NCBI RefSeq assembly: GCF_900129315.1
Contig: NZ_FQUS01000005.1
Span: forward strand, 62,001 to 126,000
Source of the DNA: Fodinibius roseus
GTDB taxonomy: Bacteria; Bacteroidota; Rhodothermia; Balneolales; Balneolaceae
Reading direction: 5' to 3'
Length of the DNA stretch: 64,000 bases
The notes beneath the pieces are model-generated. The model was given only the letters and a program-made list of their open reading frames with translations, made no database searches and had not been told where the DNA came from. The translations under genes and the position numbers were made by a program. Of the stretch, positions 7,437 through 62,800 are shown one piece after another (position 1 is the first letter of the stretch; every line of letters starts with the position of its first letter).

Positions 7437-7668
7437 ATCATCTATTCTATTGAACAAGCCTTAAATTACGCCTATACTCCCTCTTTACAAAATAGTATGA
7501 TTTTACAGTTCTGAGGCAAGGGTTTCTACTTTCAAGAAAAAAGTTTAACATTTATCATCCTTATTAACGGATTTCACAATTTGAAAATTGTTCAAAGGAG
7601 GCTGCGTATAGCTTAGCGATACTATTTCTTTGGTTGACAGATCAACAAAAATATATTCAACACTATAC

Positions 7669-39741: not shown

Positions 39742-39804
39742 TATATCTAAATATAATTTGAGTTAACTATAAAGGTAATGGTGAGTAATAAATCGGTCGG
39801 GATT

Positions 39805-43212: not shown

Positions 43213-43224
43213 GCCCCTTTAATC

Positions 43225-44856: not shown

Positions 44857-44905
44857 TGGATATTAGCTGCAGGATATAAGATTGAATTCCCGGAAAAATC
44901 GTTAC

Positions 44906-46303
44906 ATGATGAATAACACTCGTTGGATAATTGCAGTACTCTTTGTAGCCGCAACTATCATTCAGTGCCAGCAAAGTAAAACAGAGGACCATTCAACCGT
45001 ACAAACCGAAGAGGTGACAACGCCGGATAATGCGCTGGAACAGTATTTGCAGCAGCCGGATGATTCCTACGGATGGGAGCTGGAAAATACGGTAGAGCAG
45101 GAGGAGAGCACGCTATACCAGCTTGCATTAACCTCACAGACCTGGCGGGATCTGGTCTGGGAGCACTCCCTGAGTATTGTTATACCCCGGGAACGCAATG
45201 AGGAAGCTGAGGATGCCCTGCTTTTTATTTCCGGGGGCCATAACAAAGGCACGCATCTTCATCCCGATGCGGATGACGGGCCCTTACAGGCCATAACCAG
45301 GATAGCACGGGAGAACCGGGCGGTTACTGCGTTGATAAAGCAAGTACCCAATCAGCCTTTGTTCGGAGGCAAGACCGAAGACGAAATTATTTCTTACACC
45401 CTGCATAATTATAAAGAGGACGGCGACTTCACCTGGCCGCTGCTTTTTCCCATGGTCAAGAGCGTGGTAAAAGGGATGGATGCGGTTCAGGCGTTTGCAG
45501 AGCAGCAGGAATATTCTGTCAGGCACTTCCTGTTAACCGGCTATTCCAAACGCGGGTGGACGAGCTGGCTGGCCGGAGCCAGCGACGAACGGGTAAAGGC
45601 CATCGCTCCCAGCGTTATCGATGTGCTGAATATGCCGCTGAATGTGGACTACCAGGTCAAGACATGGGGGGATTACAGCGTTGAAATTCAGGATTACGTC
45701 CGACTCGGCATTGCGCAGGATATTAGTTCCCCTTCCGGCAAAGAGCTGGTAACAATGATCGATCCCTTTTCCTACCGGGAGAAACTGGACATGCCCAAAT
45801 TGATTTTAATCGGCACAAACGATCCTTACTGGCCGGCTGACGCGGTAAAACACTATTTTAATCAGCTGCCGGGTGAAAATTATATTTTTTATACACCCGA
45901 TGCCGGTCACGATTTGAGGGGAGGAGAGGAGGCGACCCCCATCCTCAGTGAGTTTTTTAACGATATGCTCAGCGATGCGGCCTATCCGGAATTTCAGTAT
46001 GATTATACCGAAGAGGAGCAGGGGTTTTCCATATCCATAACCTCGGATCAGCCGGTTGCATCCATTGAACGATGGACGGCACATTCAACCGACCGGGATT
46101 TCAGGGATGAAAAATGGTCTGTGCAGCAAACCTCAGCCGGCGGGACCGGGACGTTCTCCGCAACCGTTCATCGTCCACAGAAAGGGTATCTCGCCACGTA
46201 CTGGAATGTGGTCTACGAGGGAGACCTCATCCCCCGCTACCCGCTGAGCACCCGTATGTTCGTGGCAGGCAAAGATTCCGTTTACCTTGATGCCATGGAG
46301 TAG
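44906..46303 (+). CDS. PhoPQ-regulated (PqaA-type) alpha/beta-hydrolase lipoprotein
   Basis: A 465-residue exported protein of the PqaA family. From ATG 44906 the N-terminus MMNNTRWIIAVLFVAATIIQ ends in a probable lipobox Cys; TTG 44882 would add eight residues. The early segment TPDNALEQYLQQPDDSYGWE opens the family domain. The nucleophile elbow is in LTGYSKRGWTSWL, the Asp in ILIGTNDPYWPADAV, and the His in DAGHDLRGGEEATP. The family is common in glycan utilisation regions, though its exact substrate is unknown; a carbohydrate esterase role is an inference. It begins 49 bases after susD. Confidence 0.85.
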   Translation: MMNNTRWIIAVLFVAATIIQCQQSKTEDHSTVQTEEVTTPDNALEQYLQQPDDSYGWELENTVEQEESTLYQLALTSQTWRDLVWEHSLSIVIPRERNEEAEDALLFISGGHNKGTHLHPDADDGPLQAITRIARENRAVTALIKQVPNQPLFGGKTEDEIISYTLHNYKEDGDFTWPLLFPMVKSVVKGMDAVQAFAEQQEYSVRHFLLTGYSKRGWTSWLAGASDERVKAIAPSVIDVLNMPLNVDYQVKTWGDYSVEIQDYVRLGIAQDISSPSGKELVTMIDPFSYREKLDMPKLILIGTNDPYWPADAVKHYFNQLPGENYIFYTPDAGHDLRGGEEATPILSEFFNDMLSDAAYPEFQYDYTEEEQGFSISITSDQPVASIERWTAHSTDRDFRDEKWSVQQTSAGGTGTFSATVHRPQKGYLATYWNVVYEGDLIPRYPLSTRMFVAGKDSVYLDAME

Positions 46304-46807
46304 CGCGACGAATCCATGCCCACCGACTGTTACGATGGTATTCGTAACCTGTCTGGCCTCTATTGCAGTAGAAAAGAATAGTTGTGAGGCGAGGCTGTCT
46401 GGTGACGTCTTTCTGCTGCATACGGGGTAGATACTCGCGAAAACATGGTATGGGTTCGTAAACGATCGTCCAATTGGCTTTGAACCTGCAGTTTTTGGGT
46501 TTAAGAATGTCCTTTAAAAACAACTGGGATAAAAACCAAAAAGATGAGAAGAGTATATTATAAGAGTATTGGCTTGATCCCCATTGCTCTTTTTGAATAC
46601 CCCGGCATTGATATGGAGTACATATTCGTTTATGCCGAAAGATTAGCTCTTGTTGGTACGCTGGATACCTGCAAAGTTGATGTCATATTGAAGCACAAGC
46701 AGGAGATTTATCAAAATGGTATCACAACTAAACGGATCGGCCGGTACCTGACGTCCGGCTGTGAAATCATAAATATGTGAAAGAGTAACGGTACAAAGTC
46801 CACATTG
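46304..46807. other. Intergenic region inside the glycan region
   Basis: About 500 bases. GTTACGA (46329-46335) and TCGTAAC (46342-46348) form a perfect 7-bp hairpin after the PqaA-type gene but without a T-run. A 78-codon frame at 46544-46780 shows no recognisable family or coding character. No repeat of the susC leader is seen here. Confidence 0.4.
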
Positions 46808-49153
46808 ATGTTAAAGAGAATAGGCATCCTATTTATTCTGGTTCTCTGTGCACATATGTTGTCATGGGGAAACAGTGCTGTAATTATCAAGAGCGTATAT
46901 CTTGATCCCGGCCTGGGGGATGCGGATATCTTCGTGCCGCTGGAATTTCTGTTGGAAGAAGTTGACAAGCGAACGTCCGACCCTTTGGAACAATCGGATC
47001 AGGTGGAGGGGGAAGGGGGACAAATACTGCTGGTGGCCCCTTCGTTTTCCGACTGGCCCGCCGGGTCGCAGGACCTGCGGCAGGCTTACCCGCTGCCGGG
47101 TGAAAAAGAAGGATACCGGATTTTGTCGATCGGTCGGCAAATTTACGTGCAGGGAACCGACTTCAGGGGTCTGCTGTACGGGATTGGTTATTTCCTGCGA
47201 AAGGCTGTCTACGCCGGTACCCTGCAATGGGAGGGAGCAAGCATCAGCACTGCCCCCGACAAGCCTGTTCGCGGCCACCAGATAGGCTTTCGCAATACGG
47301 CCAACTCCTATGATGCGTGGACGCCCGGGCAGTATGAGCAATACTTGCGAGATATGATCGTTTTCGGGACCAACAGCATTGAAAATACGCCCAGTTACGG
47401 AGAACAATCCCCTCACTTTACGCTGTCAAGGCGGCGAATGAATGTAGAACTGAGCCGTCTCAGCAAGAAGTACCGGCTGGATTACTGGATATGGACACCC
47501 ATTGAATTTGATCTCAGGAACAGGGAAAAAGCCGGGGCCTATCTGCGTCGGCAGGAGGAGCTGTACCGGGCGCTGCCCCGGCTGGATGCCGTTTTTATAC
47601 CGGGGGGCGACCCCGGGGACAATCCCCCGGAGCGGGTGCTGCCGATGATGGAGCAGATGGCGAGAACCCTCAAAAAGCATCACCCGGAGGCCCGTCTGTG
47701 GCTTTCGCTGCAGGGATTTAGCCCGCAAGAAAGCCAGTTCGTCTACGACTACCTGGCGAGACAATCTCCCCGGTGGATGGGCGGGCTGGTCGCCGGTCCC
47801 GGCAGTCCCCCGATGGCTGAAACCCGCGCGGCGTTGCCGGAACAGTATGCCCTTCGTCACTACCCGGATATTACCCATACCGTTCGGTGTCAATATCCCA
47901 ACTGGTGGTGGGACCCGGCCTATAACTTTACCCTCGGCCGGGAGCCGATCAATCCACAGCCGCGGCGATACCGGAATATTGTTCGCCATACAGAGGAATA
48001 TACCGATGGGTTCATCACCTATTCCGATGGCATGCATGACGACCTGAATAAGATGATATGGTCCCAGCTGGGGTGGGATAAGGCAACAGATCCCGGTGAT
48101 TTGGTAAAAGACTACGCCAACTACTTCCTGGATTCCCACATGGCCGATCGCATCGCAGACGCACTTTTCGCTCTTGAGCAAAATTGGGATGGTGCGGTAA
48201 AATATAACGGCTCCGTTACCGGAACGCTCCGGTTGTGGCAAACTGTGAGTCGCGACCGGGAGCTTGATAATACGGGCAATGAGTGGCGCTGGAACATGTA
48301 TCTGCTGCGGGCCTATTACGATGCGCTGGTTAGAAAGCGCTTTATCTATGAGGAGAAACTGGAGCAACAGGCGAATGCCGTGATGCAAAAAAGCAAAGAA
48401 CTGGGGTCGGCAGCCGTAATAGATTCTGTGAAGGGGATATTGAACCGTGCGGAATCCTATGTTGAACATGATCCCTGGAAAGACCGGATTTACAGCCTTG
48501 CCGATGAGCTGTTCAGGGAGATCGGTTACCAGTCGAGCGTACCGCTGTACCGGGCAAAAAACCCGGAGCGGAGCGCTATCCTGGATTTTGTCGATCGTCC
48601 CCTGAACAACCGGTGGTGGATCGAATCCGAATTTGAGCGGATATCCGGCTGGACGGAATCCAGGAAGGTAGAGCGCCTGGTTCAAGTGGGAAGCTGGGAA
48701 ACACCTGGAAAGGGAAGCTTCTACGACGATGTCGGAAACGTGTACAAAAGTCCCCACGTCGTAAAACTGCAGGCTCCTGATAACGACCCGTTGTTTGAGC
48801 TGAGTGATAACCCTGGTTTCGATTGGTGGGAGGAGGGGTACAGCAAGGCACGGCTTTCCTGGATGAGCAGCATGCGCTGGCCGGTTATGCAGTACCGGGG
48901 GCTGGATCCCGGTGCTCGCTACATTATACGTCTGACGGGAGTGGGGGAGTTTTACACCTATGCTGACGGCCAGCCACTGGAGGCGGTCACAGAACGAAAA
49001 GAAACCGGCGAGATCATAGAGCTGGATGTCCCCCGTACCCTTACCAGGGACGGGACTCTGAGGCTCACATGGCAGAACAAAGATGAGCGTCACCTGAACT
49101 GGCGGCAGCACTCGCGGTTGAACGAAATTTGGTTAATCAAAGAAGCGCTTTGA
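46808..49153 (+). CDS. Secreted glycoside hydrolase, GH20/GH67-like architecture
   Basis: A 781-residue secreted protein from the ATG at 46808 (MLKRIGILFILVLCAHML, signal peptide). Residues ~25-140 look like the alpha/beta N-terminal domain that precedes GH20 hexosaminidases and GH67/GH115 glucuronidases, ending in YVQGTDFRGLLYGIGYFLRK. A (beta/alpha)8 domain follows: KPVRGHQIGFRNTANSYDAW, WIWTPIEFD, then AVFIPGGDPGDNPPERVLP. The GGD-x site is where GH20 enzymes have GGDE, but the Glu is Pro here. A helical region (~470-560) and a C-terminal beta domain with YIIRLTGVGEFYTYADGQPL close it. The exact family and substrate are unknown; acidic sugar or hexosamine are the candidates. Confidence 0.75.
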   Translation: MLKRIGILFILVLCAHMLSWGNSAVIIKSVYLDPGLGDADIFVPLEFLLEEVDKRTSDPLEQSDQVEGEGGQILLVAPSFSDWPAGSQDLRQAYPLPGEKEGYRILSIGRQIYVQGTDFRGLLYGIGYFLRKAVYAGTLQWEGASISTAPDKPVRGHQIGFRNTANSYDAWTPGQYEQYLRDMIVFGTNSIENTPSYGEQSPHFTLSRRRMNVELSRLSKKYRLDYWIWTPIEFDLRNREKAGAYLRRQEELYRALPRLDAVFIPGGDPGDNPPERVLPMMEQMARTLKKHHPEARLWLSLQGFSPQESQFVYDYLARQSPRWMGGLVAGPGSPPMAETRAALPEQYALRHYPDITHTVRCQYPNWWWDPAYNFTLGREPINPQPRRYRNIVRHTEEYTDGFITYSDGMHDDLNKMIWSQLGWDKATDPGDLVKDYANYFLDSHMADRIADALFALEQNWDGAVKYNGSVTGTLRLWQTVSRDRELDNTGNEWRWNMYLLRAYYDALVRKRFIYEEKLEQQANAVMQKSKELGSAAVIDSVKGILNRAESYVEHDPWKDRIYSLADELFREIGYQSSVPLYRAKNPERSAILDFVDRPLNNRWWIESEFERISGWTESRKVERLVQVGSWETPGKGSFYDDVGNVYKSPHVVKLQAPDNDPLFELSDNPGFDWWEEGYSKARLSWMSSMRWPVMQYRGLDPGARYIIRLTGVGEFYTYADGQPLEAVTERKETGEIIELDVPRTLTRDGTLRLTWQNKDERHLNWRQHSRLNEIWLIKEAL

Positions 49154-49423: not shown

Positions 49424-51607
49424 ATGATTAAGACAACTTGGTTTTTGGTTCTGTTATTACTGCTGCAATGGACGGGGATAAACGCGCAATCCTTTGAGGA
49501 TAGCGCCTATCCCCAGCCGGTGTCGAAGAAATACGCGGTTCGGGAGACAGATGGAGATCTCCGGATGAAAAAAATGGTCATTGACCGGGATGACAATGTG
49601 TTTGCGCTCACCAACCAGGGATTGTTTGTTATAATTGAAGATCAGCTGGTCCCCGACCGGCGATACCGTCCCCTTGCCGACAAAAATCCGGTGGATATAA
49701 CCATCCAGTCCGGGACCGGAATACTGTATTATTTATATGACGACCATTACCTGTCGAATGCCCATGCCGGCAAACCCTACGGGTCATTTGCGTCACAGGA
49801 GTATACGGATATCGCCGTCAATGAAAGCGGGGATGTGCTGCTTGCGGGAGATAAGCATATCGCACTTGATACGAACCGGGGCCGGGAGACCGGGACCCTG
49901 GAGGAACCTATACGGGCTATCAAAAGTCATGGAGACGATTTCTTTTTGCAAACCGGTACGGGGATCCACCGGTATGAGAACGGGCAGGCCCGGCAAGTGG
50001 TCGAGGATGCGCATATTATGGACTGGACATTCGGCGGGGAGGCGTTGTTTGTTTCCAACGAAAAAGGATACTATGCTGTATCTGCCGAAAGCTGGGAGGA
50101 AAAAGAATCACTGAGGACGAAGATACCGGTGATCCCGGCTACCTCCCTGGCATACCGGGAGGGACGCCTGTGGGCCGGCTCCGACATCGGGATGTACGCC
50201 ACACAAAACCTGGAGGATTACCGGTACTACGCCTCCCGGAGATGGCTGCAGGACGACCGGGTGCTGGATGTGGCCGTAGATTCGGAGGGGAACGCTTATG
50301 CGCTGACGGAGCAGGGAATATCGGAGGTGCATTTTAAAGAGATGACCCTGAAGGACAAAGCCGACTATTTTTATGACCGGATCCGGAAACGGCACCTGCG
50401 GTACGGTTTGATAGGCGAGGTGAGAATGAGTGAGCCCGGCGACCTGACAACGATGGAGATGCACGATACGGATAATGACGGGCTGTGGACCTCCTTCTAC
50501 CTGGGCAGTGAGGTATTCAGGTATGCTGCGACGGGGGCCGAAGAAGCCAAAGAGCACGCCCTTGAGTCGTTCGAAGCATTTGAACGGCTGATTTCCATAA
50601 ATCCGCTGGAGGGCTTTCCGGCACGGACTTTCGAGCGGAAAGGATACCGGGTGTCCGGGGGACCTGAGGACTGGCGTCCCGGCGTGGATGAAAAGTGGGA
50701 GTGGAAAGGTACAACCAGCAGTGATGAATTCGTGGCCTACATATGGGTCGCCGGTATCATCAATCAATACCTTGATTTGACTGCCAGGGAGGAAGACCGG
50801 GTCGCCCGGTTTATCGATCAGATTATGAGTCATATCATTGACAATGACTACTATTTCGTCGATATCGATGGGGAGCCAACGCTCTGGGGACGCTGGAACC
50901 CGGAATATGTCAACTGGTATCCCGAAACGGTGGTGGACCGCAAGCTGGGCAGTACAACGATTACGGCGGGACTCCAACTGGCCTATAAGCTGACGGGAAA
51001 AGAGATCTATAAAGAGGAGATGCAGCGCTTGTTCGAGGAGCATGGCTACCTGGATAATATTAAGATACCATTGGAAAAAATCGGTCCCACGCCGGGATAT
51101 ATCTATAAAGGACACGATATGGGTGACGGGGGCTGGAACCACTCCGATGATGAAATGGCCTTTCTTACCTATTGGGTGTTATATCATTACGCCCTGAACG
51201 ATGAGCTTCAGCAAACGTATGCGGAGGTCATCACCGACCACTGGGATATCGAAAAGCCGGAGCGCAATGCCCTGTGGAACCTGATCACCTACGGCACGTC
51301 CGGGGATATCGACCTTTCTTCGGTGCAATGGCACCTCAGAGAATTTCAGCTCGATATGATTCGGTGGGATGTCAAAAACTCGCACCGCAAGGATCTGGAA
51401 TTCCTGGAGCCTAATTTCAGGGGACAAACAACCAGGGAATTGCTTCCGCCCGGGGAACGGGAAACGCACCGGCATAATGCCAATCCCTTTGACCTTGATG
51501 AGGGGAACGGGGGACTCAGATCCCTGGCCGGCGATGAGTATTTGCTGCCGTACTGGATGGGCAGATACCTGGATGTCATTGTTCCTGTAACCAACGCAAA
51601 GCATTAA
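49424..51607 (+). CDS. Secreted two-domain protein: N-terminal propeller, C-terminal alpha/alpha barrel
   Basis: A 727-residue protein with signal peptide MIKTTWFLVLLLLLQWTG to INAQ. Residues ~35-300 show repeated short beta blades (MVIDRDDNVFALTNQGLFV, DIAVNESGDVLLAG, SLAYREGRLWAGSDIGMYAT, VAVDSEGNAYALTEQGI), a two-component-regulator-type propeller. From ~310 on, helices dominate, with MEMHDTDNDGLWTSFYLGS and aromatic loops (YWVLYHYALND), as in alpha/alpha toroid enzymes such as epimerases and unsaturated glucuronyl hydrolases. No characterised homologue is known to me. Lies three bases before the NagX-like gene, so co-transcribed. Confidence 0.78.
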   Translation: MIKTTWFLVLLLLLQWTGINAQSFEDSAYPQPVSKKYAVRETDGDLRMKKMVIDRDDNVFALTNQGLFVIIEDQLVPDRRYRPLADKNPVDITIQSGTGILYYLYDDHYLSNAHAGKPYGSFASQEYTDIAVNESGDVLLAGDKHIALDTNRGRETGTLEEPIRAIKSHGDDFFLQTGTGIHRYENGQARQVVEDAHIMDWTFGGEALFVSNEKGYYAVSAESWEEKESLRTKIPVIPATSLAYREGRLWAGSDIGMYATQNLEDYRYYASRRWLQDDRVLDVAVDSEGNAYALTEQGISEVHFKEMTLKDKADYFYDRIRKRHLRYGLIGEVRMSEPGDLTTMEMHDTDNDGLWTSFYLGSEVFRYAATGAEEAKEHALESFEAFERLISINPLEGFPARTFERKGYRVSGGPEDWRPGVDEKWEWKGTTSSDEFVAYIWVAGIINQYLDLTAREEDRVARFIDQIMSHIIDNDYYFVDIDGEPTLWGRWNPEYVNWYPETVVDRKLGSTTITAGLQLAYKLTGKEIYKEEMQRLFEEHGYLDNIKIPLEKIGPTPGYIYKGHDMGDGGWNHSDDEMAFLTYWVLYHYALNDELQQTYAEVITDHWDIEKPERNALWNLITYGTSGDIDLSSVQWHLREFQLDMIRWDVKNSHRKDLEFLEPNFRGQTTRELLPPGERETHRHNANPFDLDEGNGGLRSLAGDEYLLPYWMGRYLDVIVPVTNAKH

Positions 51608-51610
51608 ACT

Positions 51611-52714
51611 ATGACTGACAAACCGCTTTCAAAACGATTGATCTCCCTGGATTTTTTCCGCGGCATAACCATAGGGGCCATGATTATTGTCAACACCCCG
51701 GGGGCGCATGAGTATGTTTTTGGTCCCCTCGCCCATGCCGAGTGGAACGGCATAACGCCTACGGACTATATTTTCCCCTTTTTTATTTTCATCGTAGGCG
51801 TTTCCATAGTCCTTGCGTACACCAAGTATCTTTCCAGGGGAAGAAAGCGGGGCGAGATGGTACCGAAAATCGTAAAGCGGAGCCTCATTATTTTCGGGCT
51901 TGGATTGTTTCTGAATTTATTTCCGGGCTTTGACTTTGCGAATATCCGCATTCCGGGGGTACTGCAGCGGATTGCTCTTGTATTCTTTGCCTGTGCGCTG
52001 ATGTTCCTGTATACGTCACGGCGAACGCAGTGGTGGATTGGCGGGGGCCTACTGGTCGCATACTGGCTGATCATTGCCTTGATTCCCCACCCGGAACAGG
52101 GGCTGTCGCTGGCTGAGCCCGGAAAGAATATTGCTGCGTGGATCGATCATACCTTCATTCCGGGCAGTTTATACCAGGGGACGTGGGACCCCGAGGGTAT
52201 TCTCAGTACGCTGCCGGCTATTGTTACAGGTATAACGGGCATGATTGCCGGATATGTCATTGTGAGTGACCGGCCGAGTGAGCGAAAAGTTATCGCGTTG
52301 ATGGTGGGAGGACTCCTTGCCTTTGTGCTGGGCAATATGTGGGGCTGGGCCTTCCCGCTGAACAAGCACCTGTGGACGAGCTCATTTGTGCTGTATACCT
52401 CCGGACTTGCTTCCATGGTGCTTGGGGCCTGTTATTACTGGATTGATATTCTGGACAAATCCGAAGGTACGTTTGCGGGCGTGGTTTTCGGAACCAATGC
52501 GATTACCGCTTACGTCATTTCGGGTATCCTTCCCGTGGTGACGCACTCGGCCTGGCTGGGAGACGCAAGCTTGCGGTCGCTGTTTATGTCGGGGGGGACG
52601 GGAGTCGGACTGAATCCCTACCTCGTCTCTTTCCTGTGGGCGCTATTCTTCTGTTTCCTCTGCTATATCCCGGTATATTACCTGTACAAGAACAGAATAT
52701 TCATAAAAGTTTGA
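51611..52714 (+). CDS. NagX-type membrane acyltransferase (heparan-alpha-glucosaminide N-acetyltransferase family)
   Basis: A 367-residue inner-membrane protein with about ten helices. KRLISLDFFRGITIGAMIIV followed by NTPGAHEYVFGPLAHAEWNG is the characteristic opening of the COG4299/DUF5009 branch related to human HGSNAT, with the conserved His in the first loop. ITPTDYIFPFFIFIVGVSI is the next signature. The human enzyme moves acetyl from cytosolic acetyl-CoA to a glucosamine amine across the membrane; bacterial members sit in N-acetylglucosamine or amino-sugar gene clusters. Start at ATG 51611, three bases after the previous gene. Its role here in N-acetylating an imported glucosamine is an inference. 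Confidence 0.85.
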   Translation: MTDKPLSKRLISLDFFRGITIGAMIIVNTPGAHEYVFGPLAHAEWNGITPTDYIFPFFIFIVGVSIVLAYTKYLSRGRKRGEMVPKIVKRSLIIFGLGLFLNLFPGFDFANIRIPGVLQRIALVFFACALMFLYTSRRTQWWIGGGLLVAYWLIIALIPHPEQGLSLAEPGKNIAAWIDHTFIPGSLYQGTWDPEGILSTLPAIVTGITGMIAGYVIVSDRPSERKVIALMVGGLLAFVLGNMWGWAFPLNKHLWTSSFVLYTSGLASMVLGACYYWIDILDKSEGTFAGVVFGTNAITAYVISGILPVVTHSAWLGDASLRSLFMSGGTGVGLNPYLVSFLWALFFCFLCYIPVYYLYKNRIFIKV

Positions 52715-52778
52715 CTTATTTTTTCGTTGGATTCAAGGACCTTATTTAAATAAAATACAGAACATCAAAAAAACGATT

Positions 52779-53843
52779 ATGAGATATTTGCTATGTTTGT
52801 ATATGTTGACCTTTCTGCTGTTTGCAGTGGCTTCCACTCCTCTTCAGGCCCAGCAGGATACCTACGCTGAAAAACTGGGATATCCCCGGGACGCAAAAGT
52901 GTTGATTATGCATGTAGACGATGCCGGGATGTCCTGGGATTCGAATAAGGGTACCCGGGAGGCCATCGAAAACGGCGCAGCCAACTCGTTCAGTATTATG
53001 ATGCCCTGTCCCTGGGTGCCGGGCATCGTAAAATATGTTAAAGAAAATCCCCGATCCGATGCCGGATTGCACCTGACACTTACATCGGAATGGGATGACT
53101 ATCGCTGGGGACCGCTAATGGGCAAGCCGGCGGTGCCGGGACTGGTGGATAAAGAAGGCTGCTTCTGGGGGTCGGTCGACCAGGTCGTTGAGCACGCTTC
53201 GCCGGATGAGGTTGAAGCAGAGATCAGAGCCCAGGTCGAGCGGGCGCTCACCATGGGATTTCGTCCCACGCACCTGGATTCCCATATGGGGACCCTCTTC
53301 GCGGACCGTGCGTTCCTGGAGCGTTATATCAGAGTCGGTGCGGACTACAATATTCCCGTTATGTTTCCCGGGGGACACCTGTCATTTTTGAAGGAGGACT
53401 ACCGGCAGGAAACGATCCGCGAACTGAAGGAAAGCGGACAGTGGAAAGAGGGGATGGAAGTGCCTACGCCCGATCTGCTGGATCAGGCGCCTGAAATGGG
53501 AAAAAAAATATGGTCGATGGGACTGCCGGTACTCGATGATCTTCATAACGTCAGCGGCTGGAAGTACCCGGGGGATAAAAAGCCTACGGACGAGCAGCTG
53601 CAGCGGTTCCATACGGAGAAATATATTGAGACGATTGATGAATTGAAGCCCGGACTGACGATGGTCATAATGCACTGTACGGATCCGTCGGAGATATTCG
53701 GGGATATTTCCTCCTCCGGGCTGCGTCGCAAGGGCGATCTGCTGGCGATGACGGATCCCGCGTTGAAGCGATACCTAGAGGAGGAAAACATCATCCTGAC
53801 CACATGGCGGGAAGCAATGGAGCGGCGGCAAAAGGTCAATTAG
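52779..53843 (+). CDS. ChbG/YdjC-family carbohydrate deacetylase, exported
   Basis: A 354-residue deacetylase with signal peptide MRYLLCLYMLTFLLFAVAST to LQAQ, so acts in the periplasm or outside. Metal-binding and catalytic motifs are HVDDAGMSWD (Asp47-Asp48), DAGLHLTLTSEWDD, and the distal HLDSHMGTLF with its two His; GWKYPGDKK and MVIMHCTDPSEIF close the fold. ChbG removes the N-acetyl group of GlcNAc in chitobiose or its phosphate (E. coli); HpnK-like relatives act on hopanoid sugars. Coding 64 bases after the NagX-type gene. That an acetyltransferase and a deacetylase are adjacent is notable. Confidence 0.87.
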   Translation: MRYLLCLYMLTFLLFAVASTPLQAQQDTYAEKLGYPRDAKVLIMHVDDAGMSWDSNKGTREAIENGAANSFSIMMPCPWVPGIVKYVKENPRSDAGLHLTLTSEWDDYRWGPLMGKPAVPGLVDKEGCFWGSVDQVVEHASPDEVEAEIRAQVERALTMGFRPTHLDSHMGTLFADRAFLERYIRVGADYNIPVMFPGGHLSFLKEDYRQETIRELKESGQWKEGMEVPTPDLLDQAPEMGKKIWSMGLPVLDDLHNVSGWKYPGDKKPTDEQLQRFHTEKYIETIDELKPGLTMVIMHCTDPSEIFGDISSSGLRRKGDLLAMTDPALKRYLEEENIILTTWREAMERRQKVN

Positions 53844-54066: not shown

Positions 54067-55200
54067 ATGATGATATACCCACTTTTAACGACAAACAGAC
54101 TTTTTTTCAACATTTCCAGGCTCGTTTTATGCTGTATGTGGATGGCCGGCGCACTGCTCTTTGCCGGCTGCCAGTCATCAGAATCCCGGCAAGAATCCAC
54201 CGGTGATTTGCCGGTAAAGGATTTTGTGTTTGAGAAAAGTAAAGGTTTTGACCAGGCCCATGCTTCGACCATTGCCAACCTCAATGAGGAGGAATTTGTC
54301 GTTGCCTGGTTCGGCGGTACCGAAGAAAAGCATGATGACGTAGGAATATGGATTTCCAGGGGACATCCCGGGAACTGGTCAACTCCCCGGGAACTGGTGA
54401 AGGTACGGGAGGATCCTCACTGGAATCCGGTGCTGTTCAGAACACCCGGCGGAGAAATTATCTTGTACTTTAAAGTGGGAAAAGAAATTCCCGAATGGGA
54501 GACCTGGTATACGGTCTCTTCCGATGGAGGAGACACATGGAGCAAGGCCCGGGAACTGGTTCCGGGAGACAAAGGCGGACGGGGACCGGTTAAAAATAAG
54601 CCGATTGTGCTCTCGAATGGCGACTGGCTGGCACCGGCCTCACACGAGGGCGACCGGTGGCGGGTTTTTGTCGACCGAAGTAGCGACAGCGGCGAAAGCT
54701 GGACGGCCGGCGATTATATCCCCATAGATACCTCCGAGTTCCGGGGCAAGGGTGCCATTCAGCCCACGCTGTGGGAGTCGCAACCGGGTCATGTTCATAT
54801 GCTGGTGCGAACATCCGCCGGGGTCATCGGCAGAAGCGATTCCGAAGATTACGGGAAAAGCTGGTCACCGCTCTATGAGACATCGCTGCCGAATCCCAAC
54901 AGCGGTATCGACCTGGCCAAGCTACCGGACGGTACCCTGGTCCTGGCCTATAACCCGGATGATGAGAACTGGGGCGACCGGGCACCGCTGACACTGGCCG
55001 TCTCGGAGGATAACGGGGAGAGCTGGCCGTACAAACTGGATATCGAAACGGGAGATCCGGAGGATGAATTTTCCTATCCCTCTGTTATTTCCCGGGGAGA
55101 CACGGTAGCCGTCGTGTATACCTGGCAGCGCCGGAGAGTCGCTTTCTGGTCGGGTACGACAGAACAAATTAAAGCACAAACAGCTGACGACAACCAGTAA
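54067..55200 (+). CDS. Sialidase-like BNR/Asp-box lipoprotein
   Basis: A 377-residue lipoprotein; the signal ends ALLFAGC with Cys35. Four Asp boxes (SxDxGxxW) mark a six-bladed sialidase-fold propeller: SSDGGDTW, SSDSGESW, SEDYGKSW and SEDNGESW. An N-terminal HASTIANLNEEEFVVAWFGG matches the family in which an Arg/His-rich start precedes the first blade, as in PF13088 proteins, which include sialidases and other glycan-active exo-enzymes. The full sialidase triad (Arg, Glu, Tyr) is not confirmed by eye. It lies one base before the next gene, so operonic. A glycosidase releasing a terminal acidic sugar is the best guess. Confidence 0.8.
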   Translation: MMIYPLLTTNRLFFNISRLVLCCMWMAGALLFAGCQSSESRQESTGDLPVKDFVFEKSKGFDQAHASTIANLNEEEFVVAWFGGTEEKHDDVGIWISRGHPGNWSTPRELVKVREDPHWNPVLFRTPGGEIILYFKVGKEIPEWETWYTVSSDGGDTWSKARELVPGDKGGRGPVKNKPIVLSNGDWLAPASHEGDRWRVFVDRSSDSGESWTAGDYIPIDTSEFRGKGAIQPTLWESQPGHVHMLVRTSAGVIGRSDSEDYGKSWSPLYETSLPNPNSGIDLAKLPDGTLVLAYNPDDENWGDRAPLTLAVSEDNGESWPYKLDIETGDPEDEFSYPSVISRGDTVAVVYTWQRRRVAFWSGTTEQIKAQTADDNQ

Positions 55201-55201
55201 A

Positions 55202-56515
55202 ATGCTGACACCGAAGCAAGATAAACGCCTGGCTATATTTATGGTTATGCTGACGCTGGGAACAGCATGGGCTATTCGCGGGAGTTTCGGACATGAATTC
55301 GGGGCGGCCTGGGCCGGTTCCATCGGGGTTCTTTCAGTGGTAGTGGTTTCAGGAAGAAAAGACTGGATGCAGAACTGGCCGGCGATAGCGGCAATAGGGG
55401 CTGTCGGCTGGGGAGTGACGGGCATGATCAGCTACGGACAAGTGGTGGGTTACGGAAAGAGTACTGATTTCCTGAACGTCTCATATGGGCTGCTGAGTCT
55501 GTTTTTGATCGGGGGGTTGTTCGGCTTTCTGGGCGGCGGTTTGACGGGACTGGTGCTGGAGACCTCAAAAGATAAAAAAGCAAACTGGCCCGCTCTGATT
55601 ACCCAGATGGTGGCCGGGGCTTATATTGTTTGGGGATATTTGATTTATCAGTTGGAGTGGTATATGACGCCGCCGCGATCCGAGTTATGGGCGGCCTGTC
55701 TGGGCGCTTCGGCCGCATTGGGCTGGTACCTGCACCGACATCATTTTAAGAATGCCTGGTATGTGGCGTTTTCGACGATGCTGGGGGCCGGCTTCGGTTT
55801 CGCCTTCGGGAACGTTATGCAGGTCACGGGGAGCGCCAGCGGTATTGCTTTTAACTGGTGGAATGTTATGGAATATTCGATCGGCTTTTTTGGGGGACTT
55901 GGTATGGCTGCCGGGGTATTCAACCGAAAGTGGCCCCACATGCGATCGACAACGCTGAAAACCCACGGCTGGGCCATCGCCTTGTTATTCCTGTTTATCC
56001 CTCTTGTGACCATTGTGAGTACATTTTCATATGAGGAGATTGCAGAGCTGGGATTACAACTATCGGTACCGGAAGTGCCATCGTTTTATCTCACGCAATG
56101 GGGACTGGTTATGGGTGTTAGCGTATTGTCCCTGATAGTTGTTGGCGTACAGTTCCGAAAATTATGGGCGGGTCAAAGCTCCCCGAACCAGGTTGTTGCG
56201 GTCCTTTTCACCACGTGGATCTGGTATAAGCTTCTGCAAGTTATTGAATCCGGCGTGTTATATCAGTACCATTTTACCTCTGATGATTTGGCGTTTTTGA
56301 ATATTGCCGCTGTAGCTTTGATATGGAAGTGGCGGAACGTACATGATCCGTTTGCATTCGCTGCTTCCGATAGAAAATTTAATGCTGTGCTGGTTCGCCT
56401 GGTTGCAGGCATTATCCTGGCTTTGCTACTATTATCCGGTATTGTGAGTAACACGCACGGCGAGTTACCGGGACAACAACAACGGTTTACTGTCGAAATC
56501 GAAAACATGAATTAA
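55202..56515 (+). CDS. Multi-pass inner-membrane protein of unknown function, candidate transporter
   Basis: A 437-residue protein with about 11-12 membrane helices. Gly-rich pairs such as GGLFGFLGGGLTGLVLE and GAGFGFAFGNVMQ, a charged N-terminal helix RLAIFMVMLTLGTAWAIRGS with an Arg, and FGHEFGAAWAGSIG are the salient features. I do not recognise a transporter family. Its overlap-free spacing (one base after the sialidase-like gene) and position between that gene and a phosphatase suggest it handles the released sugar. Possible roles are uptake or a membrane-bound enzyme. Confidence 0.7.
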   Translation: MLTPKQDKRLAIFMVMLTLGTAWAIRGSFGHEFGAAWAGSIGVLSVVVVSGRKDWMQNWPAIAAIGAVGWGVTGMISYGQVVGYGKSTDFLNVSYGLLSLFLIGGLFGFLGGGLTGLVLETSKDKKANWPALITQMVAGAYIVWGYLIYQLEWYMTPPRSELWAACLGASAALGWYLHRHHFKNAWYVAFSTMLGAGFGFAFGNVMQVTGSASGIAFNWWNVMEYSIGFFGGLGMAAGVFNRKWPHMRSTTLKTHGWAIALLFLFIPLVTIVSTFSYEEIAELGLQLSVPEVPSFYLTQWGLVMGVSVLSLIVVGVQFRKLWAGQSSPNQVVAVLFTTWIWYKLLQVIESGVLYQYHFTSDDLAFLNIAAVALIWKWRNVHDPFAFAASDRKFNAVLVRLVAGIILALLLLSGIVSNTHGELPGQQQRFTVEIENMN

Positions 56516-56701
56516 TAGAATATGAAATTCGACGTGAGAAAACTATATAAAATACTGCCTGTCATGATGCGCCAGCGTGTGGATGGCTCCCCGCGGAACA
56601 TGAAGGCGATGACATGTTTCCGTCATCGCAATCGATTGCCAGAGCGACCGAGATTATTCCGACGTGCTGATAATTCCTGGCAGCGTTTTTCCGGGCTTTT
56701 C

Positions 56702-57955
56702 ATGGTGATGAAAATAGTGGTTCTGGGGTTAGTCTTTTTAAACGGATGTCACAGCAGTGCCGTATTGATGCAGGATACCACGAGTCCCCGCCGGATTATG
56801 ATCAATCCCCTGGAATCGGGGAACACCGGCGTGGCAATAACCTGGCGGAATGCCCTGGATGTGCAAGACAATTTTGTCCAGTTCGGCATCGCACATCCGC
56901 ATCCCCTAAACGATCTTTCGGGTTTCAGGCGTCAAAAGGCTGACAGCAGATTGGATACGATAAACTATAAAGGTACGACTGCAGTGTATAAAAGTTTTAG
57001 GACTAACATTTCGGATTTGCAGCCCGGGCAAGAATATCTGTACAGGGTGGGAAGTGATTCAAAGGGCTGGAGCGAGTGGATCCAGTTTGATCTGCCGGAA
57101 GCCCACCCCGACTCCGCCCTGACCTTTATTTATCTTGGGGACCCGCAGAATGATCTGAAAAGCCAGTGGTCACGGACCGTACGACAGGCCTATGCCACGG
57201 CGCCTGATGCTTCTTTTCTCCTGTATGCCGGGGATTTGGTCAATCGCGGGTATAACGACCGGGAGTGGAGGGACTGGTATGAGGCGGGCGATTTTATCCA
57301 CAGGATGATCCCCTCCATCATGACGCCCGGGAATCACGAGTATGAATACCCGGATCTTACCCCGTTGTGGCGCACGAATTTTACCTTTCCCGGGAACGGA
57401 CCGGAAGGCTACGGGGAATTGTACGGGGCCTGCTATTATATCGATTATCCGGCGGTTCGAGTGATATCCCTGGACGGCACCACGAGCGAAAAAGACGAGC
57501 ACCTGCGGTCGGTTCAGGCAGAATGGCTGGAAAAGGTGCTGAAAAATACCGATAAAAAGTGGACCGTATTGACGCTGCACCAGCCTTTTTACAGTACGAA
57601 AGAGACACGTGACAATCCCCAGATTCGGGACGCGTACCGGTCGCTTATTGAACAACACGGGGTCGATATCGTATTGCAGGGTCACGATCACGCCTACGGG
57701 CGGGGCATGTTGGACGAAGGAGCCCGGCGACCCGGACGCACCGGTATCATGTATGTGGTATCGGTGAGCGGACCCAAAATGTACGAGATAGGGGAGGGGA
57801 AAAACTGGATTCAGCAGCAAAGGGGAAATACGCAGCTATACCAGGTAGTAACGATTCGGGATAACCAGCTTAACTTCAAAAGCTATACGGCTACCGGGGA
57901 ACAGTCGGATGAATTCACGCTGAAAAAAACTCCGCAGGGGAATGTCCTGCAATAA
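56702..57955 (+). CDS. Purple acid phosphatase-like metallophosphoesterase, lipoprotein
   Basis: A 417-residue protein if started at ATG 56702 (MVMKIVVLGLVFLNGC, lipobox); the frame extends back to 56522, just after the previous gene, but that would put 60 residues before the signal peptide. N-terminal fibronectin-like domain (TSPRRIMINPLESGNTGVAI), then the metallophosphatase fold with metal motifs YLGDPQND, YAGDLVNRGY, TPGNHEYEY, LHQPFYS and QGHDHAYGR. It hydrolyses phosphate esters at the cell surface. Typical purple-acid ligands are present. The stop at 57953-57955 is followed in the same frame by a PA14-like fragment. Confidence 0.85.
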   Translation: MVMKIVVLGLVFLNGCHSSAVLMQDTTSPRRIMINPLESGNTGVAITWRNALDVQDNFVQFGIAHPHPLNDLSGFRRQKADSRLDTINYKGTTAVYKSFRTNISDLQPGQEYLYRVGSDSKGWSEWIQFDLPEAHPDSALTFIYLGDPQNDLKSQWSRTVRQAYATAPDASFLLYAGDLVNRGYNDREWRDWYEAGDFIHRMIPSIMTPGNHEYEYPDLTPLWRTNFTFPGNGPEGYGELYGACYYIDYPAVRVISLDGTTSEKDEHLRSVQAEWLEKVLKNTDKKWTVLTLHQPFYSTKETRDNPQIRDAYRSLIEQHGVDIVLQGHDHAYGRGMLDEGARRPGRTGIMYVVSVSGPKMYEIGEGKNWIQQQRGNTQLYQVVTIRDNQLNFKSYTATGEQSDEFTLKKTPQGNVLQ

Positions 57956-58244: not shown

Positions 58245-59652
58245 ATGTATAGTCATCCAAATAATATTATCATTTGTTTCACAGTGGTATTGTTATCTCT
58301 GGGCAATGCTGACCAAATTCGGGCCCGGCATACACCGGCCGGATCAAAACCGAATATTATTTTTATCATGGCGGATGACCTTGGATACGGGGACCTGGGA
58401 AGCTATGGGCAGTCGATGATACAAACGCCCCATATCGATCGACTGGCGAGAGAAGGGATTCGTTTTACCCAGGCATATGCGGGGGGACCCGCTTGTACGC
58501 CTTCGAGAAGCGTGCTCATGACCGGACAGCATAACGGTCACACCGCCGCCCGCGATAATATTCCCCACTACCACACGTACTTGCAGAAAGAAGATACCAC
58601 GGTTGCGGAAGTGCTGCAAGACGCCGGTTATCGTACCGGTGGCGTGGGCAAGTGGTCGCTGGGTGATGCCGGCACGGTCGGGAGGGCGACCAACCAGGGC
58701 TTTGATATGTGGCTGGGATATTTAAATCAGGATCATGCTCATTACTACTATACCGACTACCTTGACTATAATGAGCGGCGGCTTGAACTTTCCGGAAATG
58801 CCGTATTGAGAGAACATTACAGTCACGATATTTTGACGAACAAGGCGTTGCAGTTTATCCGAAAATCAAAGGATGACCCATTCTTTTTATATGCAGCCTT
58901 TACGTTACCTCATTTTTCCTCGGAGTCCGAGGATGAACATGGACTCACGGTTCCTTCCACGGTTCCCTACACGGATAAAGACTGGCCGGAAAGTGCCAGG
59001 AAATATGCGGCGATGGTCCATATGCTTGACCGGGATGTCGGTCGCATTGTTGAACTTGTTGACGAGCTGGGACTCGGGAAAAAGACATTGATTATATTCA
59101 CCAGCGATAATGGAGGTCACCGTACCATTTGGAAAGAGTTTGATACGAATGGTCCGCTCCGGGGCTATAAACGAAATCTGACGGAGGGAGGAATCCGGGT
59201 GCCCTTTATTGCAAGATGGACGGGCACCGTGCCTGCAGGCAGGGTTAGTAAGGAAGTGATATCATTTCAGGATATGATGCCGACTTTCGCAGAGTTGGCC
59301 GGGGTTGCGAGCCCCCCGCAATATTGATGGAATATCAGTACTTGGAGCGCTTGCCGGAGATACAATCAAAGAGCCCCGTAACTATCTGTATTGGGATTAC
59401 GGGCATACCCGGGTCAGGTATGACCAGGCCGTTCGCATGGGAGCGTGGAAAGGAATACGCCTGGGAGAGGAAGGTGAAATCCAGTTGTATCACCTGGGGA
59501 AAGACATCAAAGAGAAAAATAACGTAGCAGACCAATACCCGGATATCGTACGCAACATTGATGAGATTATGGAAACGGCCCATGAACCTGATGAGCGCTA
59601 TCCGATCGGGGAAGAGTATACGGGGGATCCCATCTGGAGAAAACAGCAATAG
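58245..59652 (+). pseudogene. Sulfatase (arylsulfatase/GalNAc-6-sulfatase type) broken by a frameshift
   Basis: Two frames make one sulfatase. Frame 1 runs from ATG 58245 to a stop at 59327 (360 residues): IIFIMADDLGYGDLGSYG, the formylglycine site CTPSR (Cys84) in GGPACTPSRSVLM, GKWSLGDAG, FTSDNGGH, LTEGGIRVPFIARW. The family's ending continues in the next frame to 59652 (NIDGISVLGALAG, YLYWDYGHTR, GEEYTGDPIWRK). Deleting one C from the C6 tract at 59312-59317 restores a continuous chain of 468 residues (GVASPRNIDGIS). The fault may be a true pseudogene, phase variation or a sequencing error. If expressed it would need a formylglycine-generating enzyme. Confidence 0.85.
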
Positions 59653-59879: not shown

Positions 59880-62800
59880 ATGAAAAAAAGAGACAGATAT
59901 CAAAAAAGTGTTTGTTCAGGGAAAGCAGTTTTTACGATAGCCAATTTTTTGATGGCTATAGTCGTTTGTTTGTTTTATCAAGTATCAACTGCCAGGGCTC
60001 AACAGACAGGACCGGCTGAAACGGTAAACGGAATCATCACGGATGCTTCTAATGGTGAACCACTGCCGGGTGTTAATATTAGCGTGAAAGGGACGACCAC
60101 AGGTACGGCCAGCGATTCAAACGGTGCCTATTCGCTTGAAGTCGCATCACTTGCCGATACGTTGATCTTCTCCTTTGTCGGTTTTGAGACCCGGGAGATT
60201 CCGATAGAAGGTCGTTCCGAAATAAATATTGAGCTCACACCATCCGCAGAAGCACTGGATGAAGTGGTGGTCACAGCACTGGGAATTTCCAGAGAGACGA
60301 GATCCCTCGGTTATTCGGTGGAGGAAGTCTCCGGAGATGAGATATCGACTACATCACTTGAGAATGTGACCAGCGGACTGGCCGGCAGAGTCGCGGGGGT
60401 GACGTTGAACCAGACCAGCGGAGTGGGGTCTTCGGTCAGTGTGGTGATCCGCGGATTAACGTCACTTACGACCGACAACCAACCCCTGTATGTAATAGAT
60501 GGAGTGCCGATGACCAGCGGATTGAACAATGTTTCAAATATGGGAGACGGCAATGAAGTTGACTATGGAAATGCCATCAGTGATCTCAATCCCGCTGATA
60601 TTGAAGATATGACCGTATTAAAAGGTCCGAGTGCTGCTGCTCTTTATGGATCCCGCGCGGCCAACGGCGTCGTATTAATTACTACCAAGGCTGGAGAAGA
60701 GGGTCAGCCCCAGAGAGTCTCTTTCAGCAGCAGCAATGTCTTTGAGAGACCCATGGAGTTTCTCGATTTCCATTATCGATATGCAACAGGTAACCGGAAT
60801 GCTCTTCTGGATGAGAGCTCGAACTATTGGGCGGGGCCCGAACTGGACGTTGGCAATGAGGCGGTGCAGTGGAACAGTCCGCTGGATGAAAACGGTAATC
60901 CCATACCAATGGAACTGCGTTCTTATCCCGATAATATGAAGAATTTTCTGGAAACCGGATTTACCACGTCCAACAATATTTCTCTGAGCGGATCCACCGA
61001 TGGCTCCGTGTATCGGTTTTCATTTAACAATATGATGCATAACGGGATGATTCCGAATTCCAACCTGAAGCGAAATACGTTTTCCTCGAAATATACGAGA
61101 ACTATTTCGCCAAATTTAAGTTTGGATGTAAATATTAATTATTCCCGGTCAGGTTCCGATGACCGGCCATCCACTGCGAGCAGAGATGCCAATCCGGCTG
61201 AGGCCATCTATACAATTCCTCATACGGATATCCGGGATATGGAGCAGTATTGGGAGGAGGGTCTTGAAGGCATTCAGCAGCGATCCTTTGATCAGGGTAA
61301 AGACAATCCGTATTTCCTGGCCTATGGTATTAATAATGGTTTTGAACGGGATAGGATATACGGGAGTGTAAGACTTGACTGGGAAATATTAACCGGATTG
61401 AGTGCTTTCGGCCGTTTCTCGCTGAATTCCAGAGATGAAACCCGTGAAACGAAGATACCCTGGAGTTATACCGAGATGGAGCAGGGGGGATACTTTTACA
61501 ATGAACTCGGTGGAGAAGAGATAAATACCGATTTTCTTGTCACCTATGAAACCAGACTGAATGATTTTGATTTCAGTGTCTCCGGAGGTGGAAACTATAT
61601 GATAGAAACCTCGACAAGGGTGAATACCGGAACCAGTAATAATAACAGGGGCCTGGAAGTTCCGAACCTGTATCGCATATCCAATATACCTTCGGATGTA
61701 TTGTCCGTAAACAACAGCACTTCCGAGAAAAAGATTTACAGTCTGTATGCCACGGGATCCATCGGGTTTAAAGATCAGCTTTACCTCGATCTGACCGCAC
61801 GGAACGACTGGTCCAGTACGCTGCCTGCCGACAACCGGTCCTATTTCTATCCGTCTGCATCCGTCAGCTGGCTTGCCCAGGAGACATTGCAGCTGCCGGA
61901 TCAGGTCTCCATGCTGAAACTGAGAGGCGGCTGGGCTCAGGTAGGGAATGATGCGGATCCCTACCAGCTGGAGCCATCGCTGGGAGTGGGTAACCTGCCG
62001 GGTTTCGGCTTGCCGTCCATATCAATGCCTACGACCTTGCTGAATCCCGATCTAAAGCCTGAAATTGCAACATCTGTGGAGGGGGGCATGGACCTGGCCC
62101 TTTTTGATAACCGGCTGAGATTCGAGGGAACCTATTATACGGTTGAAAACAAAAACCAGATTTTGAATGTAAATACTCCGGCCTCTTCCGGCGCAACCAG
62201 CAAATTGATTAACGCAGGTATCATTGAGAGTAAAGGCTGGGAGCTCAGTTTTGGAGCTACTCCTGTCCGTACACAGGACTGGATATGGGATTTCCAGGTT
62301 AACTTTACCAGAAACCGTACTAAGTTAGTGGAACTCGATGATGAGATTGACCGCCTGCAGTTATGGGGCGCCAATGGAGGAGGTGCCTATACGGAAGTAG
62401 GAGAAGAGATTGGCAACCTGTACAGCAGCGGGTATGCGAAAGTGGATGATCCATCCTCAGAATATCACAATTGGCCCATACTCGGCAGTAATGGCTATTG
62501 GCAGGAACTGTCTGATCCGGACGACCGCATTAAAGTGGGAAACTTTAATCCGTGGGGTATTGTCGGAGCTCAGACGTCTGTATCATACAAGCGATTTACG
62601 CTGAGTGCCAATATAGACTGGCGAATCGGCGGCGATTTCATCTCATTTACCTATCGCTATGGCGAGTCGGACTGGAAGTCGCAGAGACAGATAGACAATA
62701 TGATACCGGGCGGCCTCTACGGTACGGAAGAATTGATCGAGCTCATGAAATCGGATCCTGAACGCTATATTATCCCCCGAAACGGTAATTTTCCAAGAGT

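Follow-up and report, generated by a model that had tools for sequence, protein, structure and literature searches.

A NagX-type N-acetyltransferase and an exported YdjC-family deacetylase, linked above chance, as parts of a possible N-acetyl relay in a SusCD locus of Fodinibius roseus

Among the described deacetylases of amino sugars are CmCBDA (8jqe and 8jqf), a YdjC-family enzyme which we take to come from Cyclobacterium marinum, and the chitin disaccharide deacetylase ChbG (7vi8). CmCBDA is an N-acetylglucosamine (GlcNAc) deacetylase, turning GlcNAc into glucosamine in an enzyme cascade (available text of PMC8619855); a 'CDA from Cyclobacterium marinum' is named in the accessible part of PMC6409515, and ChbG belongs to the chb operon (PMC9402603, in extract). 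The reverse reaction is represented by the lysosomal heparan-alpha-glucosaminide N-acetyltransferase HGSNAT, where acetylation of the terminal glucosamine lets the next glycosidase act (PMC11199644 and PMC11357348, in the portions available), and by NagX, a proposed periplasmic glucosamine N-acetyltransferase (Price et al. 2022, PMC9007349) which, in the accessible text of that article, matters for glucosamine use in five bacteria, NagA doing so in four of them. Here we describe a locus of Fodinibius roseus in which relatives of both kinds are neighbours. It lies in a stretch of 64,000 nucleotides (the window; positions 62,001 to 126,000 of the 260-kb contig NZ_FQUS01000005.1), for which a sequence-only reading had noted a NagX-type membrane acetyltransferase followed by an exported deacetylase; both open reading frames (ORFs) and both family matches are confirmed (Table 1). 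The two chemistries are plausibly opposite and plausibly share a compartment. The window homologue has the catalytic His in common with NagX, but its locus is without NagA and NagB and pairs it with an exported deacetylase, a pairing not mentioned in the available portion of PMC9007349. Likewise, ChbG sits in the chb operon, whereas the window deacetylase has a signal peptide and sits in a SusCD locus.

The deacetylase, hereafter YdjC, belongs to its family by a PF04794 score of 185.8 bits (cut-off 29.7). A single N-terminal hydrophobic stretch (aa 1-23), with no Cys directly after it, is a predicted signal peptide and supports export as a prediction. In a structure search with the AlphaFold model (pLDDT 93.5), CmCBDA came top (8jqf and 8jqe, Z 36.6 and 36.4; rmsd 1.9 over 280 aa; 34% identity), followed by 2i5i (Z 31.2), 2e67 (29.4) and ChbG (28.0), with the next row at 16.1. 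The earlier label 'ChbG-type' is therefore apt for the fold, but among solved structures the GlcNAc-acting CmCBDA is closer. ChbG has the same catalytic and zinc residues as the window protein but is only 22% identical to it: D10, D11, H61, H125, H206 and R223 of kpChbG correspond to D47, D48, H98, H169, H299 and R317, as judged from alignment offsets and invariant columns, with H299 and R317 placed by order and conservation. The Asp base (D47), the zinc site (D48, H98 and H169) and the His acid (H299) are all present, the roles of catalytic, zinc and acetate residues being those given for ChbG in the accessible text of PMC9402603. Across 32 YdjC rows (the window and 31 of 80 loci), the first five residues are kept without exception and R317 in 31, so far as alignment can tell an active site that looks intact.

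The acetyltransferase belongs to the HGSNAT_cat family (PF07786, 33.6 bits, cut-off 22), has 8 hydrophobic segments in a simple hydropathy scan, and matches human HGSNAT with an E value of 9e-27, although it is shorter (367 aa) than the human protein. Against the NCBIfam model for NagX (NF046061) it scores 194.1 bits (E 3.7e-57, aa 31-367) and so misses the equivalog cut-off of 480; we therefore file it as a relative of NagX rather than as NagX itself, and use the name NagX below in this wider sense. In a pairwise alignment, D14, R17, N28, H42, D52, R90, R113, E195, G210 and Y301 fall on HGSNAT D272, R275, N286, H297, D307, R345, R372, E499, G514 and Y611, respectively, so that all ten catalytic, acetyl-CoA and glucosamine-contact positions checked agree, the His-Asp dyad included. 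Roles for N286, H297, D307, R275, R345, R372 and E499 are given in the available part of PMC11199644, and for Y611, G514 and the Asp and Arg of the first helix in that of PMC12423673. The active site of the window protein, too, looks intact by this comparison.

We refer to the genomes and loci compared by G and L numbers: G000 is the window genome, with C17, C41 and C59 as other contigs of it; L006 is from Fodinibius sediminis, L132 and L158 are from G203, L133 is from G287, L096 lies downstream of the window and L098 is the C59 locus. Counterparts of HGSNAT H297, D307, R372 and E499 occur together in 17 of 21 NagX rows and in 14 of the 15 with YdjC nearby. The Mucilaginibacter-type rows keep all ten positions, as do L006, L132 and L137; K replaces N286 in L131, L133 and L152, and L136 is without the first two positions, the chosen ORF beginning late. 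The exceptions to the four-residue set are L061, the one with YdjC nearby, which is without the glucosamine contacts and may act differently, and the paralogues on C17, C59 and C41. The window genome (5.08 Mb) has four NagX matches and a single PF04794 match, the ydjC of the window. All three paralogues are without the E499 counterpart and two of them also without that of R372; since the C59 protein is without both glucosamine contacts, the paralogues seem to differ in acceptor. The C59 paralogue stands in a second SusCD locus (L098), which has no YdjC but contains NagA (above cut-off), a NagB-like protein that at 99.5 bits stays under its cut-off, two GH109-type proteins and a sulfatase passing SGSH_C; Pfam confirmed Gfo/Idh and SusD there, and a NagB above cut-off is found on C41. 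NagA and the NagB-like gene of the C59 locus equip the organism, at least in part, with a pathway for N-acetylated amino sugars.

Within the window, nagX begins 3 bp after the end of the gene for an exported protein, P727, and ydjC follows 64 bp after nagX on the same (+) strand. A promoter and terminator scan returned 15 promoter-like sites (10.7 in shuffled sequence) and 13 terminator-like ones (9.3 in shuffled sequence), and listed none of the latter on the plus strand of the nagX-ydjC spacer. The short gaps and the absence of a listed terminator favour a single P727-nagX-ydjC transcript. Two SusCD pairs (SusC1/SusD1 at 39778-44856, SusC2/SusD2 from 59880) and the exported enzymes mark the whole as a SusCD polysaccharide utilisation locus.

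The pairing recurs elsewhere. Among 296 sampled genomes of the phylum, each at least 90% complete, PF04794 gave 50 matches in 43 genomes; two of the matches (both in G263) are possibly pieces of one gene. A NagX profile built from 10 rows and searched in these 43 genomes matched in 34, and lay within 10 kb on the same strand for 6 of the 50 YdjC matches. Without the window genome the figure is 5 of 49 against 0.31 expected (Poisson 2e-5), and within 1.5 kb it is 3 of 49 against 0.047, expectations that are on the high side because the match counts include split genes. G147 and G254 belong to the same family, so the matches are not independent and the events are fewer than the matches; the former has two tandem nagX genes beside ydjC, the latter two pairings of two different YdjC with two different NagX. 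The two genes are 4 kb apart in G203 and 6 kb apart in G287. The association of NagX with YdjC thus exceeds chance. Within the genus, YdjC of this kind is rare, being found in 2 of 12 genomes searched, the window's included. The nearest named relative of both proteins is F. sediminis (NagX 84%, YdjC 77% identical).

We used trees to ask how often the pairing arose. On a quick YdjC tree of 115 rows, the state 'NagX near', carried by 14 rows, needs 6 changes, 5 of them forced by starred branches; shuffling gave 13.4 changes, and none of 500 shuffles was as low as 6. The changes may be gains or losses, and the stars of a quick tree are less trustworthy; L001-L005, L086, L087, the duplicates L111, L117, L118, L123 and L124, and ORFs below 270 aa were dropped beforehand. 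In the NagX tree, the window and Mucilaginibacter proteins group together (99/97), with L131, L133, L152 and L061 elsewhere. The window and Mucilaginibacter cases may thus go back to a single ancestral pairing, with others indicated by L131, L133 and L061, a locus from Verrucomicrobiales. The scatter of 'NagX near', with partners drawn from separate branches, argues for the pairing having formed more than once. In the Mucilaginibacter loci and L131, NagX and YdjC are directly adjacent, outside any SusC match.

Larger parts of the locus are also shared. G203, from another family, has nearly all of it: SusC1, SusD1, PhoPQ, the putative glycoside hydrolase GHx, P727, NagX, a PafA phosphatase, an FG-GAP protein, YdjC, the sialidase-like propeller BNR, the membrane protein TM437, two metallophosphatases and GDPD (Pfam-confirmed in L132). 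G287 has GH20, NagX, a metallophosphatase, GDPD, P727, a BNR protein and YdjC; its GH20 hexosaminidase adjoins NagX, and the same genome has a second GH20-NagX pair. Of 395 sampled genomes of the phylum, 7 have P727, and every one of these also has YdjC, as against 43 of 296 generally; P727 lies near YdjC in L006, L009, L011, L021, L058, L132 and L133. By genome, YdjC is within 10 kb of P727 in G000, G203 and G287 and about 22 kb away in G212, while NagX is near P727 in G000, G203, G287 and G412. That YdjC is present in every P727 genome yet unlinked in several pulls both ways. Across P727 loci and genomes, this pattern identifies YdjC, P727 and BNR as the steadier partners and NagX as an add-on in part of the loci. 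Some loci have two tandem P727 paralogues. YdjC or NagX stands beside GMC oxidoreductases in L008/L135, L131 and L137 (in L137 with Gluconate_2-dh3), a hint of a link to 3-keto-sugar chemistry. L011, a YdjC/P727/BNR locus, contains a cytidylyltransferase and a PfkB-HAD fusion that resemble heptose enzymes (7617-9973).

What might the two enzymes do together? The sequence-only reading suggested that the cell could remove N-acetyl outside and restore it across the membrane. The linkage, the opposite kind of chemistry and the intact active sites stand, but taking the acetyl off one residue and putting it back there would be futile: with both enzymes on the same free sugar, acetyl-CoA is spent for nothing. 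The two activities must therefore be kept apart, either by a cleavage between them or by acting on different residues. We tentatively favour, while placing it a little short of even, a relay within one SusCD locus of deacetylation, cleavage and re-acetylation of the released or newly terminal glucosamine. Acting on an oligosaccharide, periplasmic YdjC would hydrolyse the N-acetyl of a GlcNAc-type residue; GHx, BNR or P727, as candidate glycosidases encoded in the locus, would free the resulting glucosamine or expose it as a non-reducing end; and NagX, drawing on cytoplasmic acetyl-CoA, would re-acetylate it in the periplasm. The product would then enter as GlcNAc for the NagA/NagB route, or an N-acetyl-dependent hexosaminidase would cut the re-acetylated residue. 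GH20 enzymes need the N-acetyl group. With this need, the logic of HGSNAT and the GH20 beside NagX in G287 in mind, we infer an order in which YdjC acts first and its product, after cleavage, is the acceptor of NagX.

Several observations weigh against such a relay. NagX is below the NCBI equivalog cut-off, and YdjC is below that for ChbG (NF002559, 66.5 bits, cut-off 227) and that for the thermophile deacetylase. NagA and NagB matches are found only on contigs other than the window's, Pfam detects no GH20 in the 13 ORFs of 39778-63254, and the activities of GHx and P727 are only putative. The pairing, though recurrent above chance and present in a SusCD locus, is not obligate: two genes separate NagX from YdjC in G203; in the flanks examined of L009 and L011, YdjC, P727, BNR and TM437 are present and NagX is missing; in G412 NagX is 2.8 kb from P727 with YdjC on another contig; neither is near P727 in the DNA examined of G231; and G212, where YdjC is distant from P727, has no NagX match in its genome. 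YdjC is on other contigs or far from P727 in G231, G412 and G220. Co-occurrence with SusCD, which the sequence-only reading had proposed to count, is limited as well: among the 80 nearest YdjC loci, NagX is present in 8 and SusC in 9, with both only in L006. These are lower bounds, many flanks being short, and short-flanked loci were scored as 'no NagX', a bias that runs against pairing.

The alternative that survives best dispenses with a relay and places the enzymes on two residues: YdjC would deacetylate one of GlcNAc type, NagX would salvage a free or N-sulfated residue of glucosamine type, and the substrate would be what brings both into one locus. Loci in which either gene occurs without the other, the NagX of C59 among a sulfatase, GH109-type proteins and Nag enzymes without YdjC, and the (split) sulfatase of the window locus all fit this account, which we consider possible, if unlikely. 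However, the direct adjacency seen outside SusC in the Mucilaginibacter loci and L131 suggests that more than a common polysaccharide links the two.

It is improbable that YdjC removes another acyl group from an amine or acts on another amino sugar, which would make the enzymes chemically unrelated. The segment at aa 197-286 is 90 aa long in the window protein against 56-58 aa in planctomycete, verrucomicrobial and other distant rows, and the matched stretches leave 85 aa there against 42 in CmCBDA, that is, a surplus of some 43 residues around aa 197-281, and the pocket may therefore differ; furthermore, the relative in L008 has GMC oxidoreductases and a Pfam-confirmed L-fucose isomerase in its cluster. 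Against this, the active-site residues are as in ChbG and the nearest structure is that of a GlcNAc deacetylase. Marginally less probable still is that NagX works as an importer or on a different acceptor, the opposite chemistry being illusory: TfMurT, which is distantly related, is noted as a putative transporter of N-acetylmuramate (Price et al., in the available part of PMC9007349) and the NagX cut-off is missed, but all the HGSNAT positions checked are present.

If the relay does operate, on what glycan? That it was assembled more than once, feeding on a phosphorylated amino-sugar glycan with a 2-keto-3-deoxy sugar acid, and represents the lysosomal heparan step run after deliberate deacetylation is, taken jointly, unlikely in our estimation. 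The inner core of bacterial lipopolysaccharide or a similar polymer would fit, in view of the purple-acid-phosphatase-like protein, the sialidase-like propeller, the downstream metallophosphatase, dihydrodipicolinate synthase (DHDPS)-type aldolase, Na+ symporter and L-fucose isomerase, and PafA and GDPD in the G203 version of the locus. The isomerase is well above its cut-off (1072 bits, cut-off 775); FucI also takes D-arabinose, which 3-deoxy-D-manno-octulosonic acid (Kdo) aldolase yields. For a sialic-acid reading, which we leave undecided, BNR gives only weak matches to sialidases (NanC and NanB, and Hz136, in the PDB), and for the DHDPS-type protein dapA-type models score best and NanA lower, all below cut-off.

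The likeness to lysosomal heparan sulfate turnover drawn by the sequence-only reading holds for the chemistry only, and there is no sign of a heparan substrate. We rejected a heparan reading, as Pfam, at the E values used, found no heparin lyase, GH88 or GH89 in the 13 ORFs, although P727, GHx and TM437, which have no Pfam match, could still include an undescribed lyase; the scanned downstream genes of L096 yielded none of the three by Pfam or NCBIfam. A weak point in favour of heparan comes from the split sulfatase, whose two pieces align to successive portions of SGSH_C (24.4 and 24.8 bits), each under the cut-off of 29.3. The PRK13759 model also matches both pieces, and the split is either a disrupted gene or an assembly error.

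The remaining genes are summarised in Table 1. P727 and TM437 have no Pfam or NCBIfam match at E 0.01, and for P727 the matches listed in structure searches (VIA-align and Foldseek) are to its propeller part. The gap from ydjC to the BNR gene is 223 bp, that from BNR to TM437 1 bp and that from TM437 to the metallophosphatase gene 6 bp; wherever TM437 was found whole, in the window as in L006, L009, L011 and L132, it directly follows BNR. A GHx profile reached the N-terminal part of O-GlcNAcase NagJ in the PDB (E 0.012), and in NCBIfam GHx matched alpha-galacturonidase and GlcNAcase models (E 0.0018 and 0.0033), with no catalytic-domain match; G203 has two GHx relatives. Upstream of SusC1 is a phosphoglycerate kinase (PF00162). 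Downstream of the window, L096 carries the complete SusD2 (PF12771, 268.8 bits), a metallophosphatase, an OMP-decarboxylase/HxlA-like protein, a Zn-alcohol dehydrogenase and a short-chain dehydrogenase/reductase (SDR) and, further on, a TIM-barrel isomerase-like protein, AraC, the Na+ symporter, the DHDPS-type aldolase, L-fucose isomerase and a DegT aminotransferase. From this gene set, the glycan of the locus probably yields sugars beyond the amino sugar.

Table 1. Genes and spacer of the F. roseus SusCD locus, in window positions
Feature	Position	Strand	Evidence or remark
SusC1, SusC-like TonB receptor; locus start	39778..43212	+	PF13715, PF07715 Plug; 12 bp before SusD1
SusD1, SusD-like lipoprotein	43225..44856	+	PF12771 282.4 bits
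PhoPQ_related protein	44882..46303	+	PF10142 370.8 bits
GHx, exported, putative glycoside hydrolase	46805..49153	+	N-terminal domain weakly GH84 O-GlcNAcase-like
P727, exported; N-terminal beta-propeller and mostly helical C-terminal part	49424..51607	+	Profile and fold; model pLDDT 75
NagX/HGSNAT-type transmembrane amino-sugar N-acetyltransferase, 367 aa, ATG	51611..52714	+	PF07786, NagX model, HGSNAT match
nagX-ydjC spacer, 64 bp	52715..52778	+	No plus-strand terminator-like site listed
Exported YdjC-family N-deacetylase, 354 aa, ATG, CmCBDA/ChbG-like	52779..53843	+	PF04794 185.8 bits, AlphaFold model, conserved residues
BNR_2 sialidase-like beta-propeller, putative glycoside hydrolase	54067..55200	+	PF13088 255 bits
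TM437 membrane protein, 1 bp after BNR	55202..56515	+	No Pfam/NCBIfam match
Purple-acid-phosphatase-like metallophosphoesterase	56522..57955	+	PF00149, PF16656
Sulfatase, split over two overlapping frames (58245..59327 and 59305..59652)	58245..59652	+	PF00884 221 bits (first ORF)
SusC2, second SusC-like TonB receptor; SusD2 from 63272 on	59880..63254	+	PF00593, PF07715

We found no report tying YdjC to polysaccharide utilisation in the open-access literature searched, and none of YdjC and NagX together among the open-access matches listed; the deacetylase of capsule synthesis in the accessible text of PMC11713874 is of a different family, CE4. The preserved glucosamine pocket and the recurrent pairing strengthen the finding. 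If the relay is true, bacteria would edit the N-acetyl group outside the inner membrane while feeding, and pay for this in acetyl-CoA. It would give a purpose to the multiple NagX copies per genome and to exported YdjC proteins, and would mark P727, GHx and TM437 as parts of one glycan pathway.

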